From Paracoccaceae bacterium (GTDB taxonomy: Bacteria; Pseudomonadota; Alphaproteobacteria; Rhodobacterales; Rhodobacteraceae), in assembly GCA_024742575.1 (NCBI GenBank), contig JANSYF010000013.1, positions 1-64,000 on the forward strand: DNA of 64,000 nt. Reading direction: 5' to 3'. The notes under the pieces are model-generated. The model was given only the letters and a program-made list of their open reading frames with translations. It was not told the DNA's origin and did no database searches. A program made the position numbers and the translations under genes. Positions within the stretch are counted from its first letter, which is position 1; each line of letters begins with the position of its first letter. This document shows, in pieces, positions 31,870 to 43,610 of the stretch.

Positions 31870-32514
31870 CTACCAGTCTACGTCAAACTTGCGCACAATC
31901 TGCTGGATATGGTCGTCCGACAACAAGGTCGCATTCATACCGCGCGTCAAAATTGCGAGCTTTGCCGTTTCTTCCAATTCTTCCATTGCAAAGGATGCTG
32001 CCCAGATATCCTTACCCGCGACGACTGGACCGTGATTGGCTAGCAAGACTGCGGAACTTTTGCCTGCTAACCCGCGCACGGCATCCCCCATCGCCGGATC
32101 ACCGGGAAGAAAGAACGGGAGCAATTTCACCTTACCCACCCGCATAATCGCGTAAGGTGTAAGAGCTGGCAGCACGTTATCGGGATCGGTTTCGGGCAGC
32201 ATTGACAGCGCGACCGAATGGGTCGAATGCAGATGTACCACCGCACCCGTGTCGTTGCGTGTCTCATAAAACGCGGAGTGCAGCGGCGTTTCCTTGGTTG
32301 GCGGATCGCCTGAAATCAGTCGGAAATTTGTATCTAGATGGCTTATCTGTGCAGGGTCCAAAAAGCCCATGGCGCGCCCTGTCGGCGTGACCAGAACGCT
32401 GCCATCAGACAACTGTGCAGAGATGTTACCTGACGACCCGCAGGTCAGCCCGCGATCAAACATCGACTTGGCCAGTGTGCAAATATCTTCGCGTAGTTTC
32501 GCGTGTTCGCTCAT
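31870..32514 (-). CDS. otnC: Class II aldolase-family 3-oxo-tetronate 4-phosphate decarboxylase homologue
   Basis: A 214-aa zinc-dependent class II aldolase/adducin protein. Key segments: GLTCGSSGNISAQL (phosphate site), KETPLHSAF (acidic residue), the metal-binding VVHLHSTHS and LLANHGPVV. In the known pathway OtnC decarboxylates 3-oxo-tetronate 4-phosphate to dihydroxyacetone phosphate. It overlaps the OtnK-like kinase by 4 bp, the expected partner. It is the last gene of the TctC-to-OtnC operon. Confidence 0.87.
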   Translation of the reverse strand: MSEHAKLREDICTLAKSMFDRGLTCGSSGNISAQLSDGSVLVTPTGRAMGFLDPAQISHLDTNFRLISGDPPTKETPLHSAFYETRNDTGAVVHLHSTHSVALSMLPETDPDNVLPALTPYAIMRVGKVKLLPFFLPGDPAMGDAVRGLAGKSSAVLLANHGPVVAGKDIWAASFAMEELEETAKLAILTRGMNATLLSDDHIQQIVRKFDVDW

Positions 32515-33731
32515 TGCGGGGATTCCATCAATGCTAGGGCCTCGACAAAGAAATCAGGCCCGCCGAAGTTCCCCGATTTGAGGACCAGCGCCGTGCCATC
32601 GCAGATCACCAAAGGTACGCCTGCGGCGGCGCGTGGTCCGATATGCAACATTTGCGCGCCCAAACCAGTCACAACCGCACCAGAGGTTTCGCCGCCTGCA
32701 ACAACCAAACGCCGCAATCCTTTGTCGACCAAGGCATTGGCGAGGCGGGAAAAAACCGCCTCAATAGCGTCCGCCGAGTGTCCACTTCCATGTTTGTTTT
32801 GAGCCGCACTGACCGTTTCGGGATCGGCTGAGGAATAGACCAGCGGTGCGGTCTCTTGCGCCATAACCCAATCAGCGATTTCGGCGATGTCATACCCATC
32901 TGCGACAGCAAGGTCCGTTTCAATTTGAAAGCTCGGGGCAATTTCGCTGAACCGTGCCACCTGTTCGCGAGTTGCACGGCTGCATGATCCTGAGAGGATC
33001 GCGCCTTGGCCCGTGATGCCAACCCAGTCAGGTTTTTTCGCTGAGAAACCAAAGTTCGCGGGCAAACCAAGGGCGATGCCCGATCCACCACACAAAAGTG
33101 GTGCGCCTTTGGCGGCTTTGCCGATCTCAAACAGGTCGCGGTCACTGATCGCGTCGGTAATCAAATGCTGCGCGGTGTCCATCGCGGCCCTGATCGCATC
33201 TCCGCCCTGTTGAACCACCATGGTATCAATATGCCCGACCGCGCGCGTGGATTGTGCCGCTAGAACGCGGCGCAAGTCTGGGTCGGCCATCGGGGTGAGC
33301 GGGTGGTTTTCCATGCCGCTTTCGCTCAGTAATTTATCGGCCACGAACAAATGCCCCATATAAACGCTGCGCCCGTTTTCGGGAAACGCAGGGCAAACGA
33401 TCACGCCTTGTGCGCCCAACATCTCGGCCAAAGCATCCAGCACAGGGCCGATGTTGCCCTCGGCCGTACTGTCGAAGGTTGAACAGACCTTGAGGATGAT
33501 CTGCTCTGCGCCTTGCGCTCGTAGCCAGCGGCAGGCGGCGACCGATTGATCAATCGCCTCTTGCACGGGGGCCGTACGGGATTTCAAAGCGACAACCCCT
33601 GCACCTAGATCGCTGTCCACATCGCCATCAGGCACACCAATGAATTGAGCCACGGACATGCCGCGTTCGGCCAATGTCAGGGCGATATCAGACGCGCCTG
33701 TAAAATCGTCCGCGATGACGCCAATTTTCAT
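32511..33731 (-). CDS. otnK: Four-carbon acid sugar kinase (3-oxo-tetronate kinase homologue)
   Basis: A 406-aa DUF1537/OtnK-family kinase. The N-terminal domain opens MKIGVIADDFTGASDIAL with the substrate-binding DDFTGASD; the C-terminal nucleotide-binding domain has LVVAGGETSGAVV. Known members phosphorylate 3-oxo-tetronates (from D-threonate, L-threonate or D-erythronate) at O4. Overlaps on both sides couple it to the MBL hydrolase and the OtnC-like enzyme. Substrate chain length is not fixed by sequence. Confidence 0.88.
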   Translation of the reverse strand: MKIGVIADDFTGASDIALTLAERGMSVAQFIGVPDGDVDSDLGAGVVALKSRTAPVQEAIDQSVAACRWLRAQGAEQIILKVCSTFDSTAEGNIGPVLDALAEMLGAQGVIVCPAFPENGRSVYMGHLFVADKLLSESGMENHPLTPMADPDLRRVLAAQSTRAVGHIDTMVVQQGGDAIRAAMDTAQHLITDAISDRDLFEIGKAAKGAPLLCGGSGIALGLPANFGFSAKKPDWVGITGQGAILSGSCSRATREQVARFSEIAPSFQIETDLAVADGYDIAEIADWVMAQETAPLVYSSADPETVSAAQNKHGSGHSADAIEAVFSRLANALVDKGLRRLVVAGGETSGAVVTGLGAQMLHIGPRAAAGVPLVICDGTALVLKSGNFGGPDFFVEALALMESPQ

Positions 33732-34525
33732 GTCTCGAACTCTTTGATTGGACCGACGTCAAGACGGTGGATATGCGTTGCCAAAGCGGAAGGGAAATAC
33801 TCGCACACCAGTGGGTCATGCCCCGGCACAATCAGCGTCGGTTTGCTTGCCAGCCGATGCAAGGTTTCAAACCCGTCGAGCATGTTTTGAAGGTCTACGA
33901 CAATCGGGAACGGTTTGCGGGCAAAGACATTTTCATAAAAATGGGCCGCATCAGAGGCCAGCACCATCCAGCCCGCCTGCGTGCGCACCCGCACCGATTG
34001 CAGCCCGCGCGAATGGCCGCCAATACAATGCACCGTGACCCCGTCGGCCACCTGCGCTTCGCCATCATGGAACGTGACCTTACCGGAATAGAGCCGCTTG
34101 ACGGCCTCGCAGACATGATCGGCGGTAAACGGCATACGCAATGTGTCGTGGCACATGCACGGACCGGTGGCATATGCCATTTCAGCCGCCTGAAGATGCA
34201 GCGTCGCGTTTGGGAACAGGTGCAACCCGCCCGCATGATCATAATGCAAATGTGTCACGATGATCTTGGTGACGTCTTCGGGTTTGATCCCGAACGGGGC
34301 GAGGGCCGTCACAGGATCAAGGCGGATCGGGCGCGCGCGCGTAGTCGCTTCGTCCATGTCATACCCTGTGTCGACCAAGATCATCTCATCGCCGCGTTTC
34401 AGCAGCCACATAAAGTAGTCCATCGCGTGGGGCGCATCGTGATAGTCATCAAAGATGAAACTGTCCGCGCGGGTGCGCGCATTGCGATCCGCGTATTTGA
34501 TCGAATAGACTTCCCAATCGCTCAT
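33728..34525 (-). CDS. Metallo-beta-lactamase-fold hydrolase, lactonase-like
   Basis: A 265-aa MBL-fold enzyme of the N-acyl homoserine lactonase-like group. The zinc motif is VTHLHYDHAGG (HxHxDH); further ligands appear at GGHSRG, ASDAAH and VPGHDP. No signal peptide, so it acts in the cytoplasm. Within an acid-sugar operon a sugar lactone is the likely substrate rather than a signal molecule; this is inference. It overlaps both neighbours by 4 bp. Confidence 0.82.
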   Translation of the reverse strand: MSDWEVYSIKYADRNARTRADSFIFDDYHDAPHAMDYFMWLLKRGDEMILVDTGYDMDEATTRARPIRLDPVTALAPFGIKPEDVTKIIVTHLHYDHAGGLHLFPNATLHLQAAEMAYATGPCMCHDTLRMPFTADHVCEAVKRLYSGKVTFHDGEAQVADGVTVHCIGGHSRGLQSVRVRTQAGWMVLASDAAHFYENVFARKPFPIVVDLQNMLDGFETLHRLASKPTLIVPGHDPLVCEYFPSALATHIHRLDVGPIKEFET

Positions 34526-34812
34526 GACGTCACCTGTGCGTAGGTTTTGACGGTCTTTCCGGCGATCATCGGGGCAACTGCGGCATCGAACGTTTTGAAA
34601 TGTGCGCTAGCGAGGTGTGCATCAAACGCCGCCGCGTTTGTATACAGTTCATATAGGAACACTTCATTGGGCGCACTTGGGTCTGTGCAAACGTCAAATC
34701 GATGACAGCCATCCTCGCGCGCCAAAGACGTTTCGGCATTGTCGCGCATCAATGGCATGAACGCGCTGGTGTCTTCAGGGTTGATCTGAAACGTGACGAC
34801 GACAGCAAACAT
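34522..34812 (-). CDS. ABM-domain (YgiN/LsrG-like) protein
   Basis: A 96-aa antibiotic-biosynthesis-monooxygenase-fold protein: MFAVVVTFQINPEDTSAFMPLM, REDGCHRFDVCTDPSAPNEVFLYELYTNAAAFDAH and ending KTYAQVTS. These small dimeric ferredoxin-like proteins act as cofactor-free monooxygenases or, as with LsrG, as isomerases of phosphorylated sugar-like compounds. The start shares TGATG with the TctA-like stop. The reaction here is unknown. Confidence 0.82.
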   Translation of the reverse strand: MFAVVVTFQINPEDTSAFMPLMRDNAETSLAREDGCHRFDVCTDPSAPNEVFLYELYTNAAAFDAHLASAHFKTFDAAVAPMIAGKTVKTYAQVTS

Positions 34813-36326
34813 CAGATGGCCTTTCCGCGCAGACGCCCAAAAGCCCGCTTGATGAAGGGGATCTGGCTCATGATGAGGGCAATGTTCAAAAGCAGCAAGA
34901 CACTTGCGACGGGGCGGGATGCAAAGACAAAGATGTCCCCACCCGAGATGAGCATTGAGCGGCGGAAGGTTTCGTCAAACAACCCGCCGAGGATCACGCC
35001 GATCACCAGTGGCGCAATCGGGAATTTTAACAGGTTCATGAAATAGGCGACAAATCCGACGCCGAGCATCAGGTAGAGATCGTTGATGCCCCCGCCCACG
35101 CTAAACGACCCGATGGTGGTCAGCACCATGACTATGGGCAGGAACACGACCTGCGGGATGCGCAGAATTTTCATGAATACACGGGCGGTGAACAGGCCCA
35201 TGATGAACATGGTGAAGGATGCCAGCAGCATGATCGCGACAACGCGCAGGATGATTTCGGGATCGATGGTGGGGCCGGGAATGATGTTGTTGATCTTGAA
35301 TGCACCCATCAAGGCGGCCGCAGGGGGTGAGCCAGGGATGCCGAGGACCAAAAGCGGGATCAACGCGCCGCCGATGCAGGCATTGTTCGCGGTTTCGGAG
35401 GACAACAGCCCCTCAAGGCTGCCTTTGCCGAATTGGTCCCCCTCTTTGGAGACGGTTTTACCTACGCCGTAGCTGACCCAGCCGGCGACGTCTTCACCCA
35501 CTCCTGGGAGCGCTCCGACGCCTGTGCCAATCACGCCAGAACGGGTGATCGTGGGCAAATACCTTTTCACGGATTTGAAATTCGGCAGGATGCGCCCCTT
35601 CACTTGGGCCATTTTGCCGATCTCCATATGCCGCATGCCTTCGATGATTTGCGGCACCGCGAAGGCGCCCATCAAGACAGGTACGACCTGAAAGCCCGAC
35701 AACATGTAGGACCAGCCGAAGGTGTAGCGCGGCTCGCTCAGCAGAGGGTCAAGCCCCACCATCGCCATCGCCAGCCCGATCAGCCCTGCGATCCAGCCTT
35801 TGACGACCAGATCTTCAGACATCAGCGTGCCCGACAGGAGGATCCCGAACAGCGCCAAGAGGGCTTTTTCAGGGCTGGCGATGTTCTTTGATAAAAGCAG
35901 CAGAACCCACACAAATACCAAAAGGGCAATCGTGCCGATTAGCGTCCCGATAAAACTGGCGGTGGTGGTCAGGCCCAAGGCCTCTCCCCCGCGACCTTCT
36001 TTGGCGAGCGGATAACCGTCCATCGCCGTCGCCGCGGACGCCGCCGTGCCGGGGATATTCAGAAGGATCGATGGATAAGACCCGCCATAAATCGCACCCA
36101 CATAAGCGCCAAGTAGCGCAATCAGGGAATAATCCAGCGGAATTTTATTGCCAAAAAAGCCGGTCAGTATGGTTACTGCCAACGTCGCCGTAAGGCCCGG
36201 CAAGGCACCAAATGTGATGCCTAGGAAGACCGAGGTTATCAGGTAGGCGTAGGTCAAAGGGTCTGCCACCAGCGCATAAAATGCGCCGCCAAAACCGGAT
36301 AACTGGGTCAGAACAAAGTCCATCAT
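34812..36326 (-). CDS. Tripartite tricarboxylate transporter large permease (TctA family)
   Basis: A 504-aa membrane protein with about 11-12 helices. The family motif GITFGALPGLTATLAVTILTGFF lies near the N-terminus and its relative GTGVGALPGVGEDVAGWVSYG in the middle. Such transporters import carboxylates with a periplasmic binding protein. Start ATG at 36326 overlaps the TctB-like gene (ATGA). The operon partners suggest a sugar acid or lactone as cargo. Confidence 0.92.
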   Translation of the reverse strand: MMDFVLTQLSGFGGAFYALVADPLTYAYLITSVFLGITFGALPGLTATLAVTILTGFFGNKIPLDYSLIALLGAYVGAIYGGSYPSILLNIPGTAASAATAMDGYPLAKEGRGGEALGLTTTASFIGTLIGTIALLVFVWVLLLLSKNIASPEKALLALFGILLSGTLMSEDLVVKGWIAGLIGLAMAMVGLDPLLSEPRYTFGWSYMLSGFQVVPVLMGAFAVPQIIEGMRHMEIGKMAQVKGRILPNFKSVKRYLPTITRSGVIGTGVGALPGVGEDVAGWVSYGVGKTVSKEGDQFGKGSLEGLLSSETANNACIGGALIPLLVLGIPGSPPAAALMGAFKINNIIPGPTIDPEIILRVVAIMLLASFTMFIMGLFTARVFMKILRIPQVVFLPIVMVLTTIGSFSVGGGINDLYLMLGVGFVAYFMNLLKFPIAPLVIGVILGGLFDETFRRSMLISGGDIFVFASRPVASVLLLLNIALIMSQIPFIKRAFGRLRGKAI

Positions 36327-37081
36327 GATCTCCAGAGGGGACGCAGAGTGACGTAATAATGGTACTCGATTTGGCTAAAGATGATGCCGCCACGATTGGG
36401 CACATTCTGGCGGAACCCGAAGGCCATGGCGCAGACGAGAATAAGCGGTGCTGCCACTGCCAGGACGGGCACAATGCGCAACACGCGATCGCCTTTTGCG
36501 TTGATCATCACGAAAACTGTGAGCACGGCCCACAGCACAAGCGTCACGCCATCATCGTCATGCGCCCCCCATTCAGCTTGCGGCAAATGGGCGATCATCG
36601 CGTAGATCCCAGCAAGGGCCACAACAAAAGCGGCCAGCAGCATGCGTTGCGCATGGCCTTTGTAGAACCCGAAAATCAGCGCCGTAATCAGCAGCCCGCT
36701 ACAGGCGACAAAATCAACTCGCGGGACCAATCCGGCGACGTAAAAGAACAAAATGATACCGATGGTGGTAAAGCGCAAAGTCTCAGCGCTGTTCCAACCG
36801 ATACCGATACCGCTCAGGGAACGTTTGGCGCCGCCTGCCTTGATCGCGATGACAAGCAGAACGACAGAAAGGATCAGCAAACAGGTGAAGATGCTCAAGG
36901 GCACAATCGCAGCCGAATTATACCAAGATGCCGAGGCCACACCGGCGCGGTTTCCACCCCAAAGCGGAATATCAAAAGTGCGCCACAGAAAAAACGCAGA
37001 TACGGCCATCAACACCAAAGCGCCCCAGAAATCACGGGCACGCAGAACTGCAAGCTCTTCAGGGGTGGTTTTGGTTTGCAT
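36323..37081 (-). CDS. Tripartite tricarboxylate transporter small subunit (TctB family)
   Basis: A 252-aa membrane protein with five or so hydrophobic segments, for example FWGALVLMAVSAFFLWRTFDIPLWG and SIFTCLLILSVVLLVIAI. It is longer than typical TctB (~150 aa): a further pair of helices with LRIVPVLAVAAPLILVCAMAFG and a tail ending LRPLWRS are present. It sits between the TctC- and TctA-like genes in the usual C-B-A order. Confidence 0.82.
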   Translation of the reverse strand: MQTKTTPEELAVLRARDFWGALVLMAVSAFFLWRTFDIPLWGGNRAGVASASWYNSAAIVPLSIFTCLLILSVVLLVIAIKAGGAKRSLSGIGIGWNSAETLRFTTIGIILFFYVAGLVPRVDFVACSGLLITALIFGFYKGHAQRMLLAAFVVALAGIYAMIAHLPQAEWGAHDDDGVTLVLWAVLTVFVMINAKGDRVLRIVPVLAVAAPLILVCAMAFGFRQNVPNRGGIIFSQIEYHYYVTLRPLWRS

Positions 37082-37163
37082 AGGCTGGCGTCCTGTGGGC
37101 TTTGTCGCACAAAGCGCGAGGAAAAGAGCCCCCGCGCTATGATATTATTCTAGAAAAACTGGC

Positions 37164-38171
37164 TTAGGGTTTTTCGATGCCGAGGCTCATTGGGTCGACT
37201 GTTGTCGCGCCCAGTTCCTGCAATGTGTAGGCAAAGTTCGCCTCAAGCGTGGCGAAGATCGCCTGTGCTTCTTCGCCGTACTGACCACCAACATCGTAAT
37301 TGTTGGCTGCGGCCCATTCGGCTACCACATCAGATGCGATTGCCATTTCAAACGCTTCACCCAAAGCGGATTTCACTTCGTCAGAAGCGGAATCGTGGAC
37401 CGCGAAACCAATCGCTTGCTTCAGCGGTAGATACGCATCCAGACCGTCATAGATGTCGAATGCAGATGGTACTGTCATGCCGCCGATTTCAGCGCTGTCT
37501 TCTGTCAACATCGCGAGGGGACGCAAAAGACCGCCTTCGATCAGGGCCGCTTGCTCAGCCAATGATGTAACAACCAATGCCACTTCGCCTGCAATCGCTG
37601 CTTCTTGACCCGGGGCAGAGCCACCGTAAGGCACGAAGAGGAATTCAGCATCCGCACCGTTCTGGATCGCGAGAAGGTTCAGGTGGTGAATGGAACCTGC
37701 ACCAGATGCCGCCGCAGGGATCGTTCCGGGGGCCGCTTTGGCCGCGTCAACGAGTTCCTGAAGGGTTGTGTATGGACTTTCAGCTGGAACGGAAATCAGA
37801 TCGGGCGAACCACCAACGATGAATGGATACCAGAAATCAAAGCGCTGGTCCCAGCCGCCTTGTACGGCTGCGGTGACGTTGGATTCAGACAGGCCGACCA
37901 AAGTGTATCCATCATCCGGCTGGTTTTGAACGTAGACCATGCCGTTCGAGCCAGCGACGCCGCCGGTCTGGTTGATAACGTTAATGGACACCGGAAGGTG
38001 CTTTTCCATTTCGGCCATGATCATGCGGTTAATGCTGTCTGTGCCGCCGCCGGCGCCCCATACAACAGCCGTTGTGATGTCGCGGAACGGATATTCCTGC
38101 GCGGATGTGGCGGTTGCCAAACCCGTGGCCAGAACAGCCGCTGTTACGATTCTCGTGATGCTAATCTTCAT
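37164..38171 (-). CDS. Tripartite tricarboxylate transporter binding protein (TctC/Bug family)
   Basis: A 335-aa periplasmic binding protein with signal peptide MKISITRIVTAAVLATGLATATSA. The mature part starts with YPFRDITTAVVWGAGGGTDSINRM, a Bug-family ligand loop, and contains TLQELVDAAKAAPGTIPAAASGAGS. GGGAGGACC precedes the ATG at 38171; an upstream in-frame ATG lacks such a site. It is first in the minus-strand operon and divergent from the dehydrogenase gene. The ligand is not deducible but should be a carboxylate. Confidence 0.9.
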   Translation of the reverse strand: MKISITRIVTAAVLATGLATATSAQEYPFRDITTAVVWGAGGGTDSINRMIMAEMEKHLPVSINVINQTGGVAGSNGMVYVQNQPDDGYTLVGLSESNVTAAVQGGWDQRFDFWYPFIVGGSPDLISVPAESPYTTLQELVDAAKAAPGTIPAAASGAGSIHHLNLLAIQNGADAEFLFVPYGGSAPGQEAAIAGEVALVVTSLAEQAALIEGGLLRPLAMLTEDSAEIGGMTVPSAFDIYDGLDAYLPLKQAIGFAVHDSASDEVKSALGEAFEMAIASDVVAEWAAANNYDVGGQYGEEAQAIFATLEANFAYTLQELGATTVDPMSLGIEKP

Positions 38172-38222
38172 TTTGGTGGTCCTCCCAGACGTAAGGTGTT
38201 TGTTGTTGCATTTCATTGCGTA

Positions 38223-38238
38223 TGCATTAAATGATGCA
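38223..38238. promoter_or_regulatory. Candidate GntR-family operator in the divergent promoter region
   Basis: TGCATTAAATGATGCA is an inverted repeat (TGCAT/ATGCA, 6-bp spacer) in the 133-bp divergent gap. A related TTGCATTTCATTGCG lies just left of it. FCD-type GntR proteins bind such short palindromes and the cluster encodes one at 40424-41101. Confidence 0.5.
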
Positions 38239-38304
38239 CTGTCAACTTTCGGTTTAGATTTTTCTGAAAGTCGCGGAACTTACGGAAAAGAGACGAGGGT
38301 CGAA

Positions 38305-39396
38305 ATGAAGAACACTTTTAACATCGCAGTCTTCCATGGTGACGGTATTGGCCCTGAAATTATGGGGCCCACGATCGATATTGTTGCGCGGATGGCAGCA
38401 GCATCGCAGAGTTATGACTTAACGTTCAAAGATGCGCCTGCTGGCGCTGCTCATTATGCGAAGACAGGCGAATCACTGCCTGATGCGTCGATGGAAACGG
38501 CCCGAAACGCCGATGCGATCTTGCTGTCTGCGATGGGCTTGCCGAATGTGCGTTACAAAGACGGTACGGAAATTTCGCCTCAGATTGACCTGCGCAAAGC
38601 CCTGACACTTTTTGCAGGTGTGCGCCCCGTAACCGTGCGCAAGGGCCAACGCACTCCGTTGAATATGCCCGCGGGCAAAGAGATTGATTTTGTGCTGATC
38701 CGCGAAAGCACCGAAGGTCTGTTTCATTCCCAAGGTTGCGGCGTCGTCACTGGAAACGAAGCCCGCGAGACCCTCTTGATCACGCGCGACATATCCGAAA
38801 AACTGTTCCGCTTTGCTTTTGATCTGGCCAAGACCCGCAAACAGGAAGGCCGTGGGCCGGGCAAAGTCACCTGCGTGGACAAGGCCAATGTGTTCCGAGC
38901 CTTCGCGTTCTTCCGCGAGATGTTTGACGCCGAGGCTGCAAAACACCCCGACCTTGCCGCAGACCACGCCTATGTGGATGCGACGGCCCTGTGGATGGTA
39001 CAAAAGCCGTGGGACTTTGACGTGATGGTAACGGAAAACATGTTCGGTGATATTCTATCTGATCTAGGTGCGGGCCTGATGGGCGGCCTTGGGCTCGCGC
39101 CGTCCGCTGATATTGGCCTTGAACATGCAGTGTTCCAACCGTGCCATGGCTCTGCCCCCGATATCGCGGGCCAAGGCCTTGCCAATCCGTTTGCGATGAT
39201 CCTGTCAGCGGCGATGATGCTCGACTGGCTCGGGATTAAACATAACAATGTCGCGATGCGCGATGATGGCAAACGCCTGCGCGAAGCGGTCGAAGATGTT
39301 GTGGCCCGCGGTGACGTTCTCACCCGTGATCTCGGTGGTAACGTCGGAACGGATGCCGCGGCACATGCGGTTCTTGATACGTTATTTGTGTCATGA
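38305..39396 (+). CDS. Isocitrate/isopropylmalate dehydrogenase family protein
   Basis: A 363-aa beta-decarboxylating dehydrogenase. Family features: NIAVFHGDGIGPEIM, the substrate-arginine region DLRKALTLFAGVRPV, ENMFGDILSDLGAGLMGGLG (Mg-binding Asp), and PCHGSAPDIAGQGLANPFAMILSAAMML (cofactor site). With OtnK/OtnC neighbours and no leucine genes nearby it probably oxidises a 2-hydroxy or 3-hydroxy sugar acid. The ATG at 38305 follows ACGAGGGTCGAA; the longer frame upstream runs through the divergent tctC gene and is rejected. Confidence 0.83.
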   Translation: MKNTFNIAVFHGDGIGPEIMGPTIDIVARMAAASQSYDLTFKDAPAGAAHYAKTGESLPDASMETARNADAILLSAMGLPNVRYKDGTEISPQIDLRKALTLFAGVRPVTVRKGQRTPLNMPAGKEIDFVLIRESTEGLFHSQGCGVVTGNEARETLLITRDISEKLFRFAFDLAKTRKQEGRGPGKVTCVDKANVFRAFAFFREMFDAEAAKHPDLAADHAYVDATALWMVQKPWDFDVMVTENMFGDILSDLGAGLMGGLGLAPSADIGLEHAVFQPCHGSAPDIAGQGLANPFAMILSAAMMLDWLGIKHNNVAMRDDGKRLREAVEDVVARGDVLTRDLGGNVGTDAAAHAVLDTLFVS

Positions 39397-40427
39397 AGAC
39401 AGGCGGTGCCAAACTGCGGGTCGCCTGTGTCGGAGCCGGATATTTTAGCCAGTTCCACTACGGCAGTTGGGCACGGATGCAGGGCGTGGACTTGGTCGCG
39501 TCCTGCAATCGTGACATCGACAAAGCCCGCGCGACGGGCTTGCCCGCCTACAGCGATCTCAACGCCATGATCGCCGAACAAGCGCCCGATCTGTTGGATG
39601 TGATCCTCCCCCCCGTGGCCCATGCAGCAACGATCCGCACCGCGTTGGCTGCGGGGATCAAATGGATCATCTGCCAAAAGCCTTTCTGCAACGACCTGTC
39701 CGAAGGCCAAGCCATCACCGCCGAGGCCGAGGCCGCAGGTGCCACCATTGTTATCCATGAAAATTTCCGGTTCCAACCATGGTACCGTGTCATCAAAACT
39801 GCGATCGAAATCGGCAAAATCGGGCGTGTCCGTCAGCTGACGTTCCGGTTGCGCCCCGGTGATGGCCAAGGGCCGGATGCCTACCTCGCGCGGCAGCCCT
39901 ATTTCCAAGAAATGCCCAAATTCCTAATCCATGAAACCGGCGTGCATTGGGTAGATACATTCCGGTATCTGCTGGGCGATCCCACGTCGGTCTATGCAGA
40001 CCTTCGCCGCGAAAACCCCGTGATCGCCGGAGAAGACGCGGGCTACGTGGTTTTTGATCATTCGGACGGCGTACGCGCTGTGTTCGATGCCAACCGCACG
40101 CTCGATCATGCCGCTGACAACCTGCGCCGCACCATGGGGGAAGCCTTGGTTGAAGGCACGGAAGGGACACTCTCGTTGGCAGGCGATGGATCCGTCACCC
40201 TGCGCGCGTTTCACAGTCAGGATCATACGGTCCTGTCCCCGCCTGACACATGGGACGGTTTTGGCGGTGATTGCGTGCATGCTTTGCAAAGCCATGTGGT
40301 GTCAGGCATATTGCGGGGAACAGCGATCGAAAACACGGCCCGCGACTATTTGGCTGTCGTCGAAATAGAGAATGCTATCTACGCCTCATCCGAGGTGGGC
40401 CGTAAAATCGAGTTGGGCACCACATGA
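39393..40427 (+). CDS. Gfo/Idh/MocA-family oxidoreductase
   Basis: A 344-aa NAD(P)-dependent sugar dehydrogenase-like protein. The N-terminal Rossmann domain opens RVACVGAGYFSQFHYG; the dinucleotide-binding WIICQKPFCNDLSEG contains the conserved Lys of EKP (here QKP). ETGVHWVDTFRYLLGD gives the catalytic-type His in the C-terminal domain. It overlaps both neighbours by 4 bp. It likely oxidises a sugar, polyol or lactone precursor in the same pathway. Confidence 0.87.
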   Translation: MKTGGAKLRVACVGAGYFSQFHYGSWARMQGVDLVASCNRDIDKARATGLPAYSDLNAMIAEQAPDLLDVILPPVAHAATIRTALAAGIKWIICQKPFCNDLSEGQAITAEAEAAGATIVIHENFRFQPWYRVIKTAIEIGKIGRVRQLTFRLRPGDGQGPDAYLARQPYFQEMPKFLIHETGVHWVDTFRYLLGDPTSVYADLRRENPVIAGEDAGYVVFDHSDGVRAVFDANRTLDHAADNLRRTMGEALVEGTEGTLSLAGDGSVTLRAFHSQDHTVLSPPDTWDGFGGDCVHALQSHVVSGILRGTAIENTARDYLAVVEIENAIYASSEVGRKIELGTT

Positions 40428-41101
40428 ACAAAGTTCTCCGAAAGCAGATGAGCAGCTCGCAACGTGCATTGCTCGAGCTTCGTGAAAAGATTTTCTCTGG
40501 CGAACTCGCACCGGGGTCAGACCATCTTGAATCTGAACTCGCCGATCAGTTGAACATGTCCCGCACCCCCGTCCGAGAGGCGGTTTTGATGCTCGAAGGT
40601 CAAGGTCTGCTCGAATTGCGTCCGCGCAAGGGCATTCGGGTGGTCCCGTTGTCGCCCGATGATATGCAAGAAATCTATGATGTCTTGACGGAACTCGAAA
40701 GCCTTGCAGCGGAATGCGCGGCAAAGGCGATGCACAAAGAAGAAGACCTACGTCGGCTGTCGAACGCTATTGACGATATGGACGTGGCCATCGCCAATAA
40801 CGACTTGGACGCTTGGGCGGACGCCGATGACAGGTTTCACACGGAACTGGTCCGGCTTGGGGGGAACAGTCGGGTCAATTCAATCGTCCATATGATGAGT
40901 GACCAAGTGCGGCGCGCGCGTATGACGACGCTCTTTATGCGCCCACTGCCGACGAAGTCCAACGAGGATCATCGTCAAGTGTACGACGCAATCAAAAACG
41001 GCGACCCACAGACTGCCCGCAATACACACCGCGATCACCGGTTGCATGCCAAAACGATCATCGTTGAATTGCTGAAGAAACACCGCTTGCGTTTTCTTTA
41101 A
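40424..41101 (+). CDS. GntR-family (FCD) transcriptional regulator
   Basis: A 225-aa regulator. The N-terminal winged HTH includes LREKIFSGELAPGSDHLESELADQLNMSRTPVREAVLMLEGQGLLELRPRKGIRV; the C-terminal FCD domain has the metal-binding pattern D..FH..LV...GN and HRDHRLHAK. It ends the plus-strand operon and is the obvious controller of both divergent units, sensing a sugar acid or intermediate. Confidence 0.92.
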   Translation: MNKVLRKQMSSSQRALLELREKIFSGELAPGSDHLESELADQLNMSRTPVREAVLMLEGQGLLELRPRKGIRVVPLSPDDMQEIYDVLTELESLAAECAAKAMHKEEDLRRLSNAIDDMDVAIANNDLDAWADADDRFHTELVRLGGNSRVNSIVHMMSDQVRRARMTTLFMRPLPTKSNEDHRQVYDAIKNGDPQTARNTHRDHRLHAKTIIVELLKKHRLRFL

Positions 41102-41512: not shown

Positions 41513-42616
41513 TCAGTTCGGGATGTCTCCGGTGATGCCTTCGATGTAGAAGTTCATGCCCAGAAGCGTGCCGTCGTCTGAGGTTTCGCCTTCAGCCAAC
41601 CATGCGCTGCCGTCCTGCTTGTTCATCGGGCCGGTGAAGGGGTGGTAATCACCCGCGGTGATCGCGTCGATCATCGCTTGTGCTTCGGCCTTCACGTCAT
41701 CTGGGATGGCGTCGTTCATTTCGCCGATCACCACTTCGCCCTCGGGCATACCCGCCCAGCTATCGACCTGTTCGTAGGTGCCATCCATCAACGCGCCGAC
41801 GCGCTTGACGTAATAGGGCGACCATTCGTCGATGATCGAGGCGATACGCGCACCCGGAGTGCCGTCGTCATTGGTGGTAAAGGCTGCCATGTCGGACGCC
41901 TGACCAAAGCCCCATGCCTTGCCGCCTTCCTTGGCGATCTCGGCAAGCGGTGCGGTGGAGTCGGTGTGCGCGGTGATCACGTCGACGCCCTGATCAAGCA
42001 TGGCGCGTGCCGCGTCTGCCTCTTTCGCCGGGTCGAACCATGTGTACGCCCAGGTCACCACCAGTTCCACATCCGGGTTCGCCAGCTTGGCGTGGTGGTA
42101 GTAGGAATTGATGCCCATGATCACTTCGGGGATCGGGAAGGAGGCGATGTAACCGATCTTGTTGGTCTGGGTCATCTTGCCTGCGATGTGGCCGACCACG
42201 GCACGGCCTTCGTAGAAGCGCGCGTTGTAGGTGGACACGTTCGGATGCTCGCGCTTGTAGCCGGTGGAATGCTCGAACTTCACATCAGGGAACTTGGCCG
42301 CGACATTGTTGGTCGGGTCCATGTAGCCAAAGGAGGTGGTGAAGATGATGTTGCAACCCGACAGCGCCATCTGGGTGATGACACGCTCGGCATCGGCACC
42401 TTCTGGCACGCTTTCCTGCCATGCGATTTCAACCTTGTCGCCGTACTCTTCCTTGACGGCCAACGCGCCCTGATGGTGCTGATAGGTCCAGCCACCGTCG
42501 CCGATGGGGCCGACATAGACAAAGCATGCCTTGGTTACGTCTTGCGCCATGGCGGGTGCGCCGAAGGCCAGTGTCAGGCCTGCGGCAGCGGTCGCAAGTA
42601 GGGTTCTGCGGATCAT
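41513..42616 (-). CDS. BMP-family nucleoside ABC transporter binding protein
   Basis: A 367-aa PnrA/Bmp-family binding protein. The signal peptide MIRRTLLATAAAGLTLAFGAPAMA is followed by KACFVYVGPIGDGGWTYQHHQG; the ligand region includes FTTSFGYMDPTNNVAAKFP and VITAHTDSTAP. GGGAG precedes the ATG at 42616; earlier in-frame ATGs would precede the signal peptide. Relatives bind purine nucleosides, which fits the xanthine dehydrogenase genes at the head of this operon. Confidence 0.9.
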   Translation of the reverse strand: MIRRTLLATAAAGLTLAFGAPAMAQDVTKACFVYVGPIGDGGWTYQHHQGALAVKEEYGDKVEIAWQESVPEGADAERVITQMALSGCNIIFTTSFGYMDPTNNVAAKFPDVKFEHSTGYKREHPNVSTYNARFYEGRAVVGHIAGKMTQTNKIGYIASFPIPEVIMGINSYYHHAKLANPDVELVVTWAYTWFDPAKEADAARAMLDQGVDVITAHTDSTAPLAEIAKEGGKAWGFGQASDMAAFTTNDDGTPGARIASIIDEWSPYYVKRVGALMDGTYEQVDSWAGMPEGEVVIGEMNDAIPDDVKAEAQAMIDAITAGDYHPFTGPMNKQDGSAWLAEGETSDDGTLLGMNFYIEGITGDIPN

Positions 42617-42677
42617 AGATAGTCTCCCGGTTGGTGGGGCGGCAGTCGCCCCGTTTGAGTGAGTGCGCCCGGTCGTG

Positions 42678-43610
42678 TCACCGGGTCGCGTGAAAGGTCT
42701 GTCCAAGATTCGCGGGCGCATCATGACTGCTGCCGCTGCGGTTGGACGATATGAAAACAAGCACGAGGATCGTTATCAGATAGGGCGACATGGACAAGTA
42801 TTGCACGCCCCATGTCAGACCCGCAGCTTGCAGATTGAGTTGCAGCACGGTGATGCCGCCGAAAAGATAGGCACCGACCAGAACGCGCCCCGCGCGCCAG
42901 CTGGCAAAGACCACGATGGCGAGCGCAATCCAACCCGCACCAGCGGTCATGCCTTCGGTCCATTGCGGCACGCGCACAAGGCTGAGGTAAGCGCCGCCCA
43001 GCCCGGCACAGGCCCCGCCGAACATGATTGCAAGCAGGCGCACGCGGATCACCTTGTAGCCCAAGGCGTGCGCGCTTTCGTGGCTTTCGCCGACGGCGCG
43101 CAGGATTAGTCCGGCGCGGGTGTATTTCAGAAACGCCCAGACGGCGACCACAATACACAGGCTCAGATACACCATGATGTCGTGGGAAAAAAGCATCCGA
43201 CCCACCACGGGAAGGTCGCTTAGGATAGGAATGTCGAGCTTGGGCAGGGTGACGGTTTTCTGCCCCTCATAGGGTTTTCCCAACAGCGACGACAGCCCCA
43301 GACCAACAAGCGTCAACCCCAGCCCAGTTGCGACCTGGTTCGACAAGAACACTTGCGTCAGAACGCCAAACGCCAACGATAGCACTGCACCTGCGATGGC
43401 TGCGGTGGCAAAGCCCAGCAGGGGTGCCCCGGTGTTGATCGCGACGATAAAGCCGATCACAGCGCCGGTGATCATCATGCCTTCGACGCCAAGGTTCAGA
43501 ACGCCGGACTTCTCGACCACCATTTCCCCGATGGCGGCCAGCAGGATCGGCGTGGCCGAGACCATAATCGACGCAACGAGAAGAATTGGATTGATGCTGC
43601 TCAGGTCCAT
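42678..43610 (-). CDS. Nucleoside ABC transporter permease (NupQ/BmpC type)
   Basis: A 310-aa permease of the branched-chain/ribose-like class with about 8-9 helices. The family motif EMVVEKSGVLNLGVEGMMITGAVIGF is near the N-terminus and RAVGESHESAHALGYKVIRVRLLAIMFGG is the cytoplasmic coupling loop. It follows the 3-TM small gene, overlapping it by 10 bp. It pairs with the permease at 43903-44991. Confidence 0.9.
   Translation of the reverse strand: MDLSSINPILLVASIMVSATPILLAAIGEMVVEKSGVLNLGVEGMMITGAVIGFIVAINTGAPLLGFATAAIAGAVLSLAFGVLTQVFLSNQVATGLGLTLVGLGLSSLLGKPYEGQKTVTLPKLDIPILSDLPVVGRMLFSHDIMVYLSLCIVVAVWAFLKYTRAGLILRAVGESHESAHALGYKVIRVRLLAIMFGGACAGLGGAYLSLVRVPQWTEGMTAGAGWIALAIVVFASWRAGRVLVGAYLFGGITVLQLNLQAAGLTWGVQYLSMSPYLITILVLVFISSNRSGSSHDAPANLGQTFHATR

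Follow-up and report, generated by a model that had tools for sequence, protein, structure and literature searches.

A divergent gene cluster with OtnK and OtnC

L-threonate and D-erythronate are degraded through LtnD or DenD, OtnI, OtnK and OtnC, and a three-step version of this pathway lacks OtnI and uses a different OtnC, according to the available text of PMC10580937 and PMC12540250. D-apiose is broken down by an apiose dehydrogenase, an apionolactonase, an oxidoisomerase, a kinase and a decarboxylase (available text of PMC11747546). Here we analysed a 64,000-nucleotide stretch (the window) of contig JANSYF010000013.1 from a Paracoccaceae bacterium, a relative of marine Roseobacters, in which a cluster of ten genes at 31870-41101 shares OtnK and OtnC with the former pathway. 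With slightly less than even confidence, we consider this cluster to be a GntR-controlled catabolic module that would yield dihydroxyacetone phosphate (DHAP) from a small sugar acid and so feed central metabolism; a tetronate (C4 aldonate) or one of its precursors is the likeliest substrate. The best reading is a variant of the OtnK tetronate pathway in which an isopropylmalate-dehydrogenase-like (IMDH-like) enzyme and an ABM protein would stand in for LtnD/DenD and OtnI. The cluster comprises the following features.

31870..32514, minus strand: OtnC, class II aldolase-type decarboxylase (NF043034, 294.7 bits; cut-off 250)
32511..33731, minus strand: OtnK, 3-oxo-tetronate kinase, DUF1537 (NF043035, 509.2 bits; cut-off 350)
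33728..34525, minus strand: MBL-fold probable lactonase (PF00753)
34522..34812, minus strand: ABM protein, LsrG-like; proposed 2-oxo/3-oxo-tetronate isomerase (PF03992, 75.3 bits)
34812..36326, minus strand: TctA, large membrane subunit of a tripartite tricarboxylate transporter (TTT) importer (PF01970, 412.3 bits)
36323..37081, minus strand: TctB-like small membrane subunit (placed between TctA and TctC; accompanies TctA in related loci)
37164..38216, minus strand: TctC, substrate-binding protein (PF03401, 76.5 bits)
38220..38237, no strand: probable GntR-regulator operator GTATGCATTAAATGATGC (14 of 18 positions matching GTATRCATTAATGYATAC)
38305..39396, plus strand: F-type isocitrate/isopropylmalate-dehydrogenase-like (IMDH-like) enzyme (PF00180, 293.8 bits)
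39393..40427, plus strand: Gfo/Idh/MocA oxidoreductase (Gfo), probable sugar dehydrogenase (PF01408)
40424..41101, plus strand: GntR-FCD regulator (PF00392 and PF07729)

All ten open reading frames (ORFs) are complete and free of internal stops. They form two divergent operons in which most neighbours overlap, by 4 bp at OtnC/OtnK, OtnK/MBL, MBL/ABM, TctA/TctB, IMDH/Gfo and Gfo/GntR and by 1 bp at ABM/TctA; gaps occur only at the TctB-TctC joint (82 bp) and in the divergent TctC/IMDH region. The proteins matched the Pfam families Aldolase_II, SBD_N with NBD_C, Lactamase_B, ABM, TctA, TctC, Iso_dh, GFO_IDH_MocA and FCD-GntR, confirming the ten tightly coupled genes and the families described in the original prediction. 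Firm names came from curated NCBIfam cut-offs for OtnK and OtnC, whose scores bear out the predicted acid-sugar route ending in these two enzymes. The other eight genes passed no cut-off that names a function, and the IMDH-like, Gfo, MBL and ABM proteins scored below every curated cut-off of the models they matched. Only the last two steps of the route rest on curated family assignments.

Beyond the common OtnK and OtnC, the cluster differs from the L-threonate/D-erythronate pathway in having the Gfo enzyme, the lactonase, the ABM protein and the F-type IMDH-like enzyme, which carries phenylalanine in place of the catalytic tyrosine. Neither the LtnD model (NF043037) nor the OtnI model matched any cluster protein, the rest of the genome not being searched for LtnD, and OtnI/Hyi was not found at E ≤ 1e-50 in the window's genome (G000), which is 87% complete. 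The earlier claim that the known entry routes are missing here thus stands for LtnD within the cluster, but it omitted DenD with OtnI, which is also a known entry (available text of PMC10580937). The regulator is a GntR protein in the window and a DeoR protein in Brucella (same source). The pathway descriptions in the available text of PMC10580937 and PMC12540250 name no IMDH-like enzyme, lactonase or ABM protein, in agreement with the prediction that the ABM protein has no place in known versions. The gene set is not described in the titles or abstract openings of the open-licence papers listed.

The D-apiose pathway, in the part of its description available, follows the same logic of sugar dehydrogenase, lactonase, oxidation with isomerisation, kinase and decarboxylase. 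Its kinase OiaK is a relative of OtnK by model match; however, the window OtnK reached 105.8 bits against the OiaK cut-off of 700, and 120.9 against the D-threonate kinase cut-off of 450. The OtnK proteins scanned (from the window, L105, L106, L107, L120, L133 and L152) all exceeded the 3-oxo-tetronate kinase cut-off. The window OtnC, in contrast to the D-apiose pathway, is a class II aldolase-type decarboxylase.

Recurrence of the module and its coupling to OtnK

The IMDH protein was scanned against one genome per species (84,980 species), and the best 80 loci, from a larger number that exist, were kept, with ORFs chosen by a codon-usage picker. Partners were counted within 9 kb of IMDH in the 66 of these loci outside Bradyrhizobium; the counts are low, as some loci stop at contig ends. 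Gfo was present in 64 loci, MBL in 53, ABM in 50, GntR in 44, OtnK in 21, OtnC in 19 and TctA in 17. MBL and ABM both lay near IMDH in 47 loci, directly adjacent to each other in 45, and they were still mutually adjacent in all five loci opened in which they lie away from the retrieving IMDH (L133-L137), one of which (L133) has a second IMDH beside the pair. All ten genes occurred together in 11 of the 66 loci, so the grouping is not due to chance, and the search for the same gene set in other genomes that had been suggested was successful. The ten genes did not hold as the unit, however, given how seldom OtnK and TctA lie near the core. The recurrent unit consists of the IMDH-like enzyme, Gfo, a lactonase (MBL or the unrelated SMP-30), ABM and GntR, while the importers swap.

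Gene order varies around this unit. It is ABM-OtnC-OtnK / SMP-30-IMDH-Gfo-GntR in G037, a genome of another family, and GntR-Gfo-IMDH / ABM-aldo/keto reductase-MBL-OtnK-OtnC in L147 (G173). Among 52 genomes (50 tested core genomes, G000 and G037), MBL was found in 45 and ABM in 47. Relatives of SMP-30 (E ≤ 1e-25) were present in 4 of the 7 MBL-less genomes versus 1 of the 45 MBL-bearing ones (p=6e-4), and in 3 of 6 MBL-less genomes when G037, the source of the query, was left out (p=0.004). SMP-30, IMDH and Gfo are consecutive in L105, L140, L144 and L146; the SMP-30 gene is unlinked to the core in G084 and G085, and at the thresholds used neither lactonase was found in G087, G089 and G090. 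The replacement of MBL by SMP-30 supports lactone opening, and the predicted lactonase step gains from an unrelated protein adjoining IMDH-Gfo in other genomes.

A plasmid search returned 18 records, of which 7 were opened. A plasmid of Sulfitobacter mediterraneus (L150) carries a version of the window cluster with a TRAP importer; an IS6 transposase and a recombinase are close by, through which it may have spread. Four Rhizobiaceae regions (L151, L152, L154 and L156) have an ABC importer, SDR, GntR, IMDH, ABM and HAD in a row, followed by OtnK-OtnC in L152 and L154; OtnK-OtnC are not listed for L151 and L156, whose gene tables are incomplete. In the plasmids of A. tumefaciens HAMBI 105 and S. 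fredii NXT3, IMDH is followed directly by ABM and accompanied by OtnK-OtnC, and SDR, HAD and an aldehyde dehydrogenase (ALDH) replace Gfo and the lactonase. In the Cupriavidus locus L155, ABM and OtnK were not seen within 17 kb.

OtnK is coupled to the IMDH core across genomes, which supports the variant tetronate pathway. It was found somewhere in the genome (E ≤ 1e-30) in 49 of 50 tested IMDH-core genomes, drawn from the 80. In a 198-genome sample of the family, IMDH (E ≤ 1e-100) occurred in 29 genomes, OtnK (E ≤ 1e-60) in 73 and both in 27 (Fisher p=1.1e-11). The match in G116 (49%) is a relative of the Tyr type (L145); once this genome was counted among the non-carriers, OtnK was present in 26 of 28 carriers versus 47 of 170 others (p=4e-11); as the genomes are related, these p-values are a guide only. 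The control iolD, over its cut-off in 101 of the 198 genomes, showed no difference (14 of 28 carriers, 87 of 170 others). Glyoxylate carboligase matched none of the 198 genomes and was useless as a control.

In a tree of 70 OtnK proteins, the window's OtnK fell within a clade of 25 core-linked rows (support 100/99), L147 lay outside this clade, and L105 and two Rhizobiaceae rows lay beyond a 100/100 branch, so the module has acquired or exchanged its kinase more than once. Flags for stops inside OtnK proved harmless at the three loci checked: in L012 and L014 the stop coincides with the end of the aligned stretch, and L008 has none. The window OtnK (32511-33731) is at most 56% identical to those of 16 sampled congeners and 78% identical to that of Epibacterium ulvae, and the cluster may have been transferred.

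These data bear on a simpler explanation, namely that LtnD/DenD and OtnI are encoded elsewhere in the genome and the tetronate pathway is a standard one, the IMDH, Gfo, MBL and ABM genes belonging to another pathway that merely shares the locus. Most core loci lack OtnK, and several core genomes have OtnK beside LtnD- and/or OtnI-like genes. An OtnI match at E ≤ 1e-50 was found in 49 of 51 genomes, where five pass the cut-off and the others may be hydroxypyruvate isomerases. Against this explanation stand the co-occurrence with its flat control, the joining of OtnK to the core in separate lineages and a shared operator, and we regard it as very unlikely.

The operator is the palindrome GTATRCATTAATGYATAC, derived from words enriched upstream of IMDH. 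Of 64 IMDH upstream regions, 40 agreed with it at 14 or more of its 18 positions, versus 3 of 640 shuffles; this enrichment is partly circular, as the consensus came from those same regions. In the window, 38220-38237 is the sole site scoring at least 13. In G076, the operator precedes IMDH (L046), an ABM-MBL pair not linked to it (L134) and an OtnK-OtnC-OtnI operon that is likewise unlinked (L120), so the shared palindrome ties together separate loci of one genome. In G092, it precedes an LtnD-OtnK-OtnC-OtnI operon whose lead gene is an L-threonate dehydrogenase (411.8 bits, cut-off 350). L105 and L106 also have sites, as does G075, where the site lies before OtnK (L133); in L151 and L152 a site precedes the importer. 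A scan of L105-L149 (589 kb) gave nine sites versus 2.0 expected, with two overlapping pairs counted twice; the site in L111 adjoins a GntR gene that has no known tie to the module. Sites of at least 8 bits occurred in 5 of 44 OtnK promoters versus 5 of 262 others (p=0.007), although one of the latter coincides with the divergent site of L133. Judging from these genomic comparisons, the module is real, recurrent and at least partly co-regulated.

The F-type dehydrogenase and the proposed pathway

Phenylalanine (F140) occupied the catalytic tyrosine position in all 89 rows (87 distinct sequences) with at least 52% identity to the window enzyme, whereas tyrosine was kept in all six rows below 52%. 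The Rhizobiaceae copies in L151 and L152 also have phenylalanine, and the Paracoccus enzyme in L153 has tyrosine. By alignment, the F-type IMDH-like enzyme is a distinct subfamily. Its predicted structure (pLDDT 94.3) matched isocitrate and isopropylmalate dehydrogenases at the top of the Foldseek results, the first being the isocitrate dehydrogenase 6m3s (best E 3.5e-37). Compared to Thermus LeuB, the counterparts of R94, R104, R132, K185, D217, D241 and D245 and the NAD-site aspartate were kept, and Y139 corresponded to F140; we take these residues to be the substrate-binding arginines, the catalytic lysine, the metal-binding aspartates and the catalytic tyrosine. R97, R107, R133, K193, D225, D249 and D253 were invariant in all 80 core rows, and D253 was kept in 88 of 89 in the larger set. 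The enzyme therefore shares the fold, the arginine triad and the lysine and aspartate residues of the beta-decarboxylating dehydrogenases (LeuB and isocitrate, tartrate and homoisocitrate dehydrogenases), and it differs from them in F140 and in falling below every equivalog cut-off (247.5 of 353.2 bits for leuB, 249.4 of 470.4 for tartrate dehydrogenase and 271.5 of 510 for isocitrate dehydrogenase).

In beta-decarboxylating dehydrogenases, this tyrosine protonates the enol after decarboxylation. The presence of F140 in all 89 rows fits a loss of that step, as we understand the mechanism, and the loss of the tyrosine suggests oxidation without decarboxylation. The available part of the work on IDH1 describes the lysine as the likely base that starts oxidation, and the Y139D mutant enzyme as still catalysing the mutant's reduction.

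The retained arginine triad, on the other hand, suggests a dicarboxylate. Gfo and the lactonase could turn a uronate into a C5 aldaric acid or a branched tartrate-like acid, and the IMDH-like enzyme could then oxidise and decarboxylate this acid, possibly directly to the 3-oxo- or 2-oxo-tetronate for OtnK. Besides the retained arginines, lysine and metal aspartates, Q93 (89 of 89 F-type rows) stands at the spacing of Asn96 in IDH1, a gamma-carboxylate contact in the part of that work available. The importers are tripartite types used for acids, and by our own reasoning the carbon count agrees, since C3 oxidation and decarboxylation of a pentarate would yield 3-oxo-tetronate. The catalytic tyrosine, however, is replaced in the whole subfamily, the ABM protein would be left with no clear task, and the Rhizobiaceae version has a sugar-type ABC importer. 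We consider this dicarboxylate route unlikely; it is a judgement that the loss of the tyrosine outweighs the arginine triad, because the ABM protein then gains a task and the layouts ending in OtnK are accounted for.

The ABM protein belongs to the same sequence family as LsrG, and the LsrG structures 2gff and 3qmq were among its PDB matches, with His and Glu positions in common in the alignment. Unlike LsrG, it scored 47.4 bits on the LsrG model, below the cut-off of 135; database records label it a monooxygenase. In the MBL protein, each of H92, H94, D96 and H97 in the HxHxDH metal motif was kept in 95% or more of 68 rows, and every AHL-lactonase (N-acyl-homoserine lactonase) equivalog cut-off was missed (best 74.6 of 375). 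AHL lactonase and LsrG are the nearest named families of the two proteins, and a signal-degrading locus, in which MBL would be an AHL lactonase and ABM an LsrG-type autoinducer enzyme, could be imagined. Since the quorum-quenching and LsrG cut-offs were all missed, and the importer, two dehydrogenases and OtnK/OtnC would go unexplained, such a function is highly improbable. The nearest solved structure of Gfo, by both sequence and fold, was 5uhw (27% identity), which we take to be a lactone-forming apiose dehydrogenase.

The LsrG likeness is also compatible with a core whose product is L-threonate or a related compound and whose starting material is larger, for example an ascorbate breakdown product. 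ABM would then act, like LsrG, on a vicinal diketone, and OtnK/OtnC would form only the tail. The threonate dehydrogenase operon of G092 carries the operator, and L-threonate is an ascorbate product (available text of PMC12540250). Clusters of the window type, however, have OtnK/OtnC and no LtnD or OtnI match, and among the ten proteins no oxygenase or diketone-cleaving family matched apart from the ABM model. This origin of the substrate seems quite unlikely.

For the variant tetronate pathway, TctABC would import an organic acid, the Gfo enzyme would make a lactone and MBL would hydrolyse this lactone to the free acid. Next, a hydroxyl would be oxidised with NAD+ by the F-type IMDH-like enzyme, a reaction in which the usual decarboxylation probably does not occur, and the ABM protein would shift the keto group to give 3-oxo-tetronate, which OtnK may phosphorylate and OtnC then decarboxylate to DHAP. 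The putative opening of a lactone and the connection with 3-oxo-tetronate are based on comparative evidence, and we infer the site of oxidation, the isomerase role of ABM and the substrate. The order proposed earlier, in which import is followed by oxidation, lactone opening and phosphorylation, would be plausible.

Several observations weigh against this variant. OtnI stands under the same operator in G076 and G092, so ABM is not simply an OtnI substitute there. Most unlinked OtnK operons lack the operator, a rank test over the 44 OtnK-operon promoters gave p=0.30, and two of the five OtnK-promoter sites are core-linked (L105 and L106), which weakens the p-value of 0.007. OtnK was not found at E ≤ 1e-30 in G071, where the core is present, nor in 2 of the 28 family carriers at the sample's threshold, and the window's own genome is incomplete. 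The three malate-site arginines are invariant in all 80 core rows, and one of them presumably holds a beta-carboxylate, which a tetronate lacks. Finally, the 14 Bradyrhizobium loci (L088-L103 except L098 and L099) have the F-type enzyme with no Gfo, GntR, MBL, ABM, OtnK or OtnC nearby. A TctC match at 29% identity was found in 2 of these 14 loci. L089, the one of them scanned with Pfam, has the F-type IMDH with a CoA-transferase, an oligopeptide-type binding protein, a zinc alcohol dehydrogenase and an enoyl-CoA hydratase.

More tentatively, we propose two new enzyme functions in families that are large and well studied: Tyr-to-Phe dehydrogenases that would oxidise sugar acids without decarboxylation, and the ABM protein as a second, unrelated 2-oxo/3-oxo-tetronate isomerase. 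Together they may make up an 'oxidise and shift' module that became linked to OtnK/OtnC at least twice and whose importers and front ends (Gfo with either lactonase fold, or SDR with ALDH) are exchangeable. If so, functions would be assigned to the ABM protein and to an unnamed dehydrogenase subfamily of marine Rhodobacteraceae, Granulosicoccus-type bacteria and rhizobial plasmids. As the operator, importers and kinase converge on one small set of acids, the substrate would be directly testable.

Importers, neighbouring genes and a second OtnK system

TctA and TctC both exceeded their Pfam cut-offs, whereas the 252-residue TctB matched neither Pfam nor NCBIfam and was named by its place. Translation of TctC probably begins at 38171, where a Met codon precedes an apparent signal peptide. 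A TRAP importer takes the place of TctABC in L081 and L040 (by Pfam) and in L150 (by annotation). Just downstream of GntR, on the opposite strand, the window encodes a PnrA-like (Bmp) ABC binding protein (41513-42760), probably of an unrelated importer. Other neighbours suspected from protein length to be catabolic were in fact Omp85/TamB, EAL, DHO-dehydrogenase, patatin and similar proteins.

Locus L068, titled Oceanobacillus sp. HTM 045, lies in G094, and its OtnK coordinates are identical to those in G020, a genome of the window's family, so the name looks wrong. A second OtnK system was seen in L107 (1292-10843), L113, L126, L127 and L129, all five of which have TctC- and TctA-like genes, an IMDH relative, an Asp/Glu-racemase-like protein and OtnK. 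OtnC is present in L113, L126 and L129, aconitase in the four other than L126, and an RraA-like protein in L107. The IMDH relative of this system is Tyr-type, with 37-39% identity, and its OtnK proteins form one clade (support 100/99).

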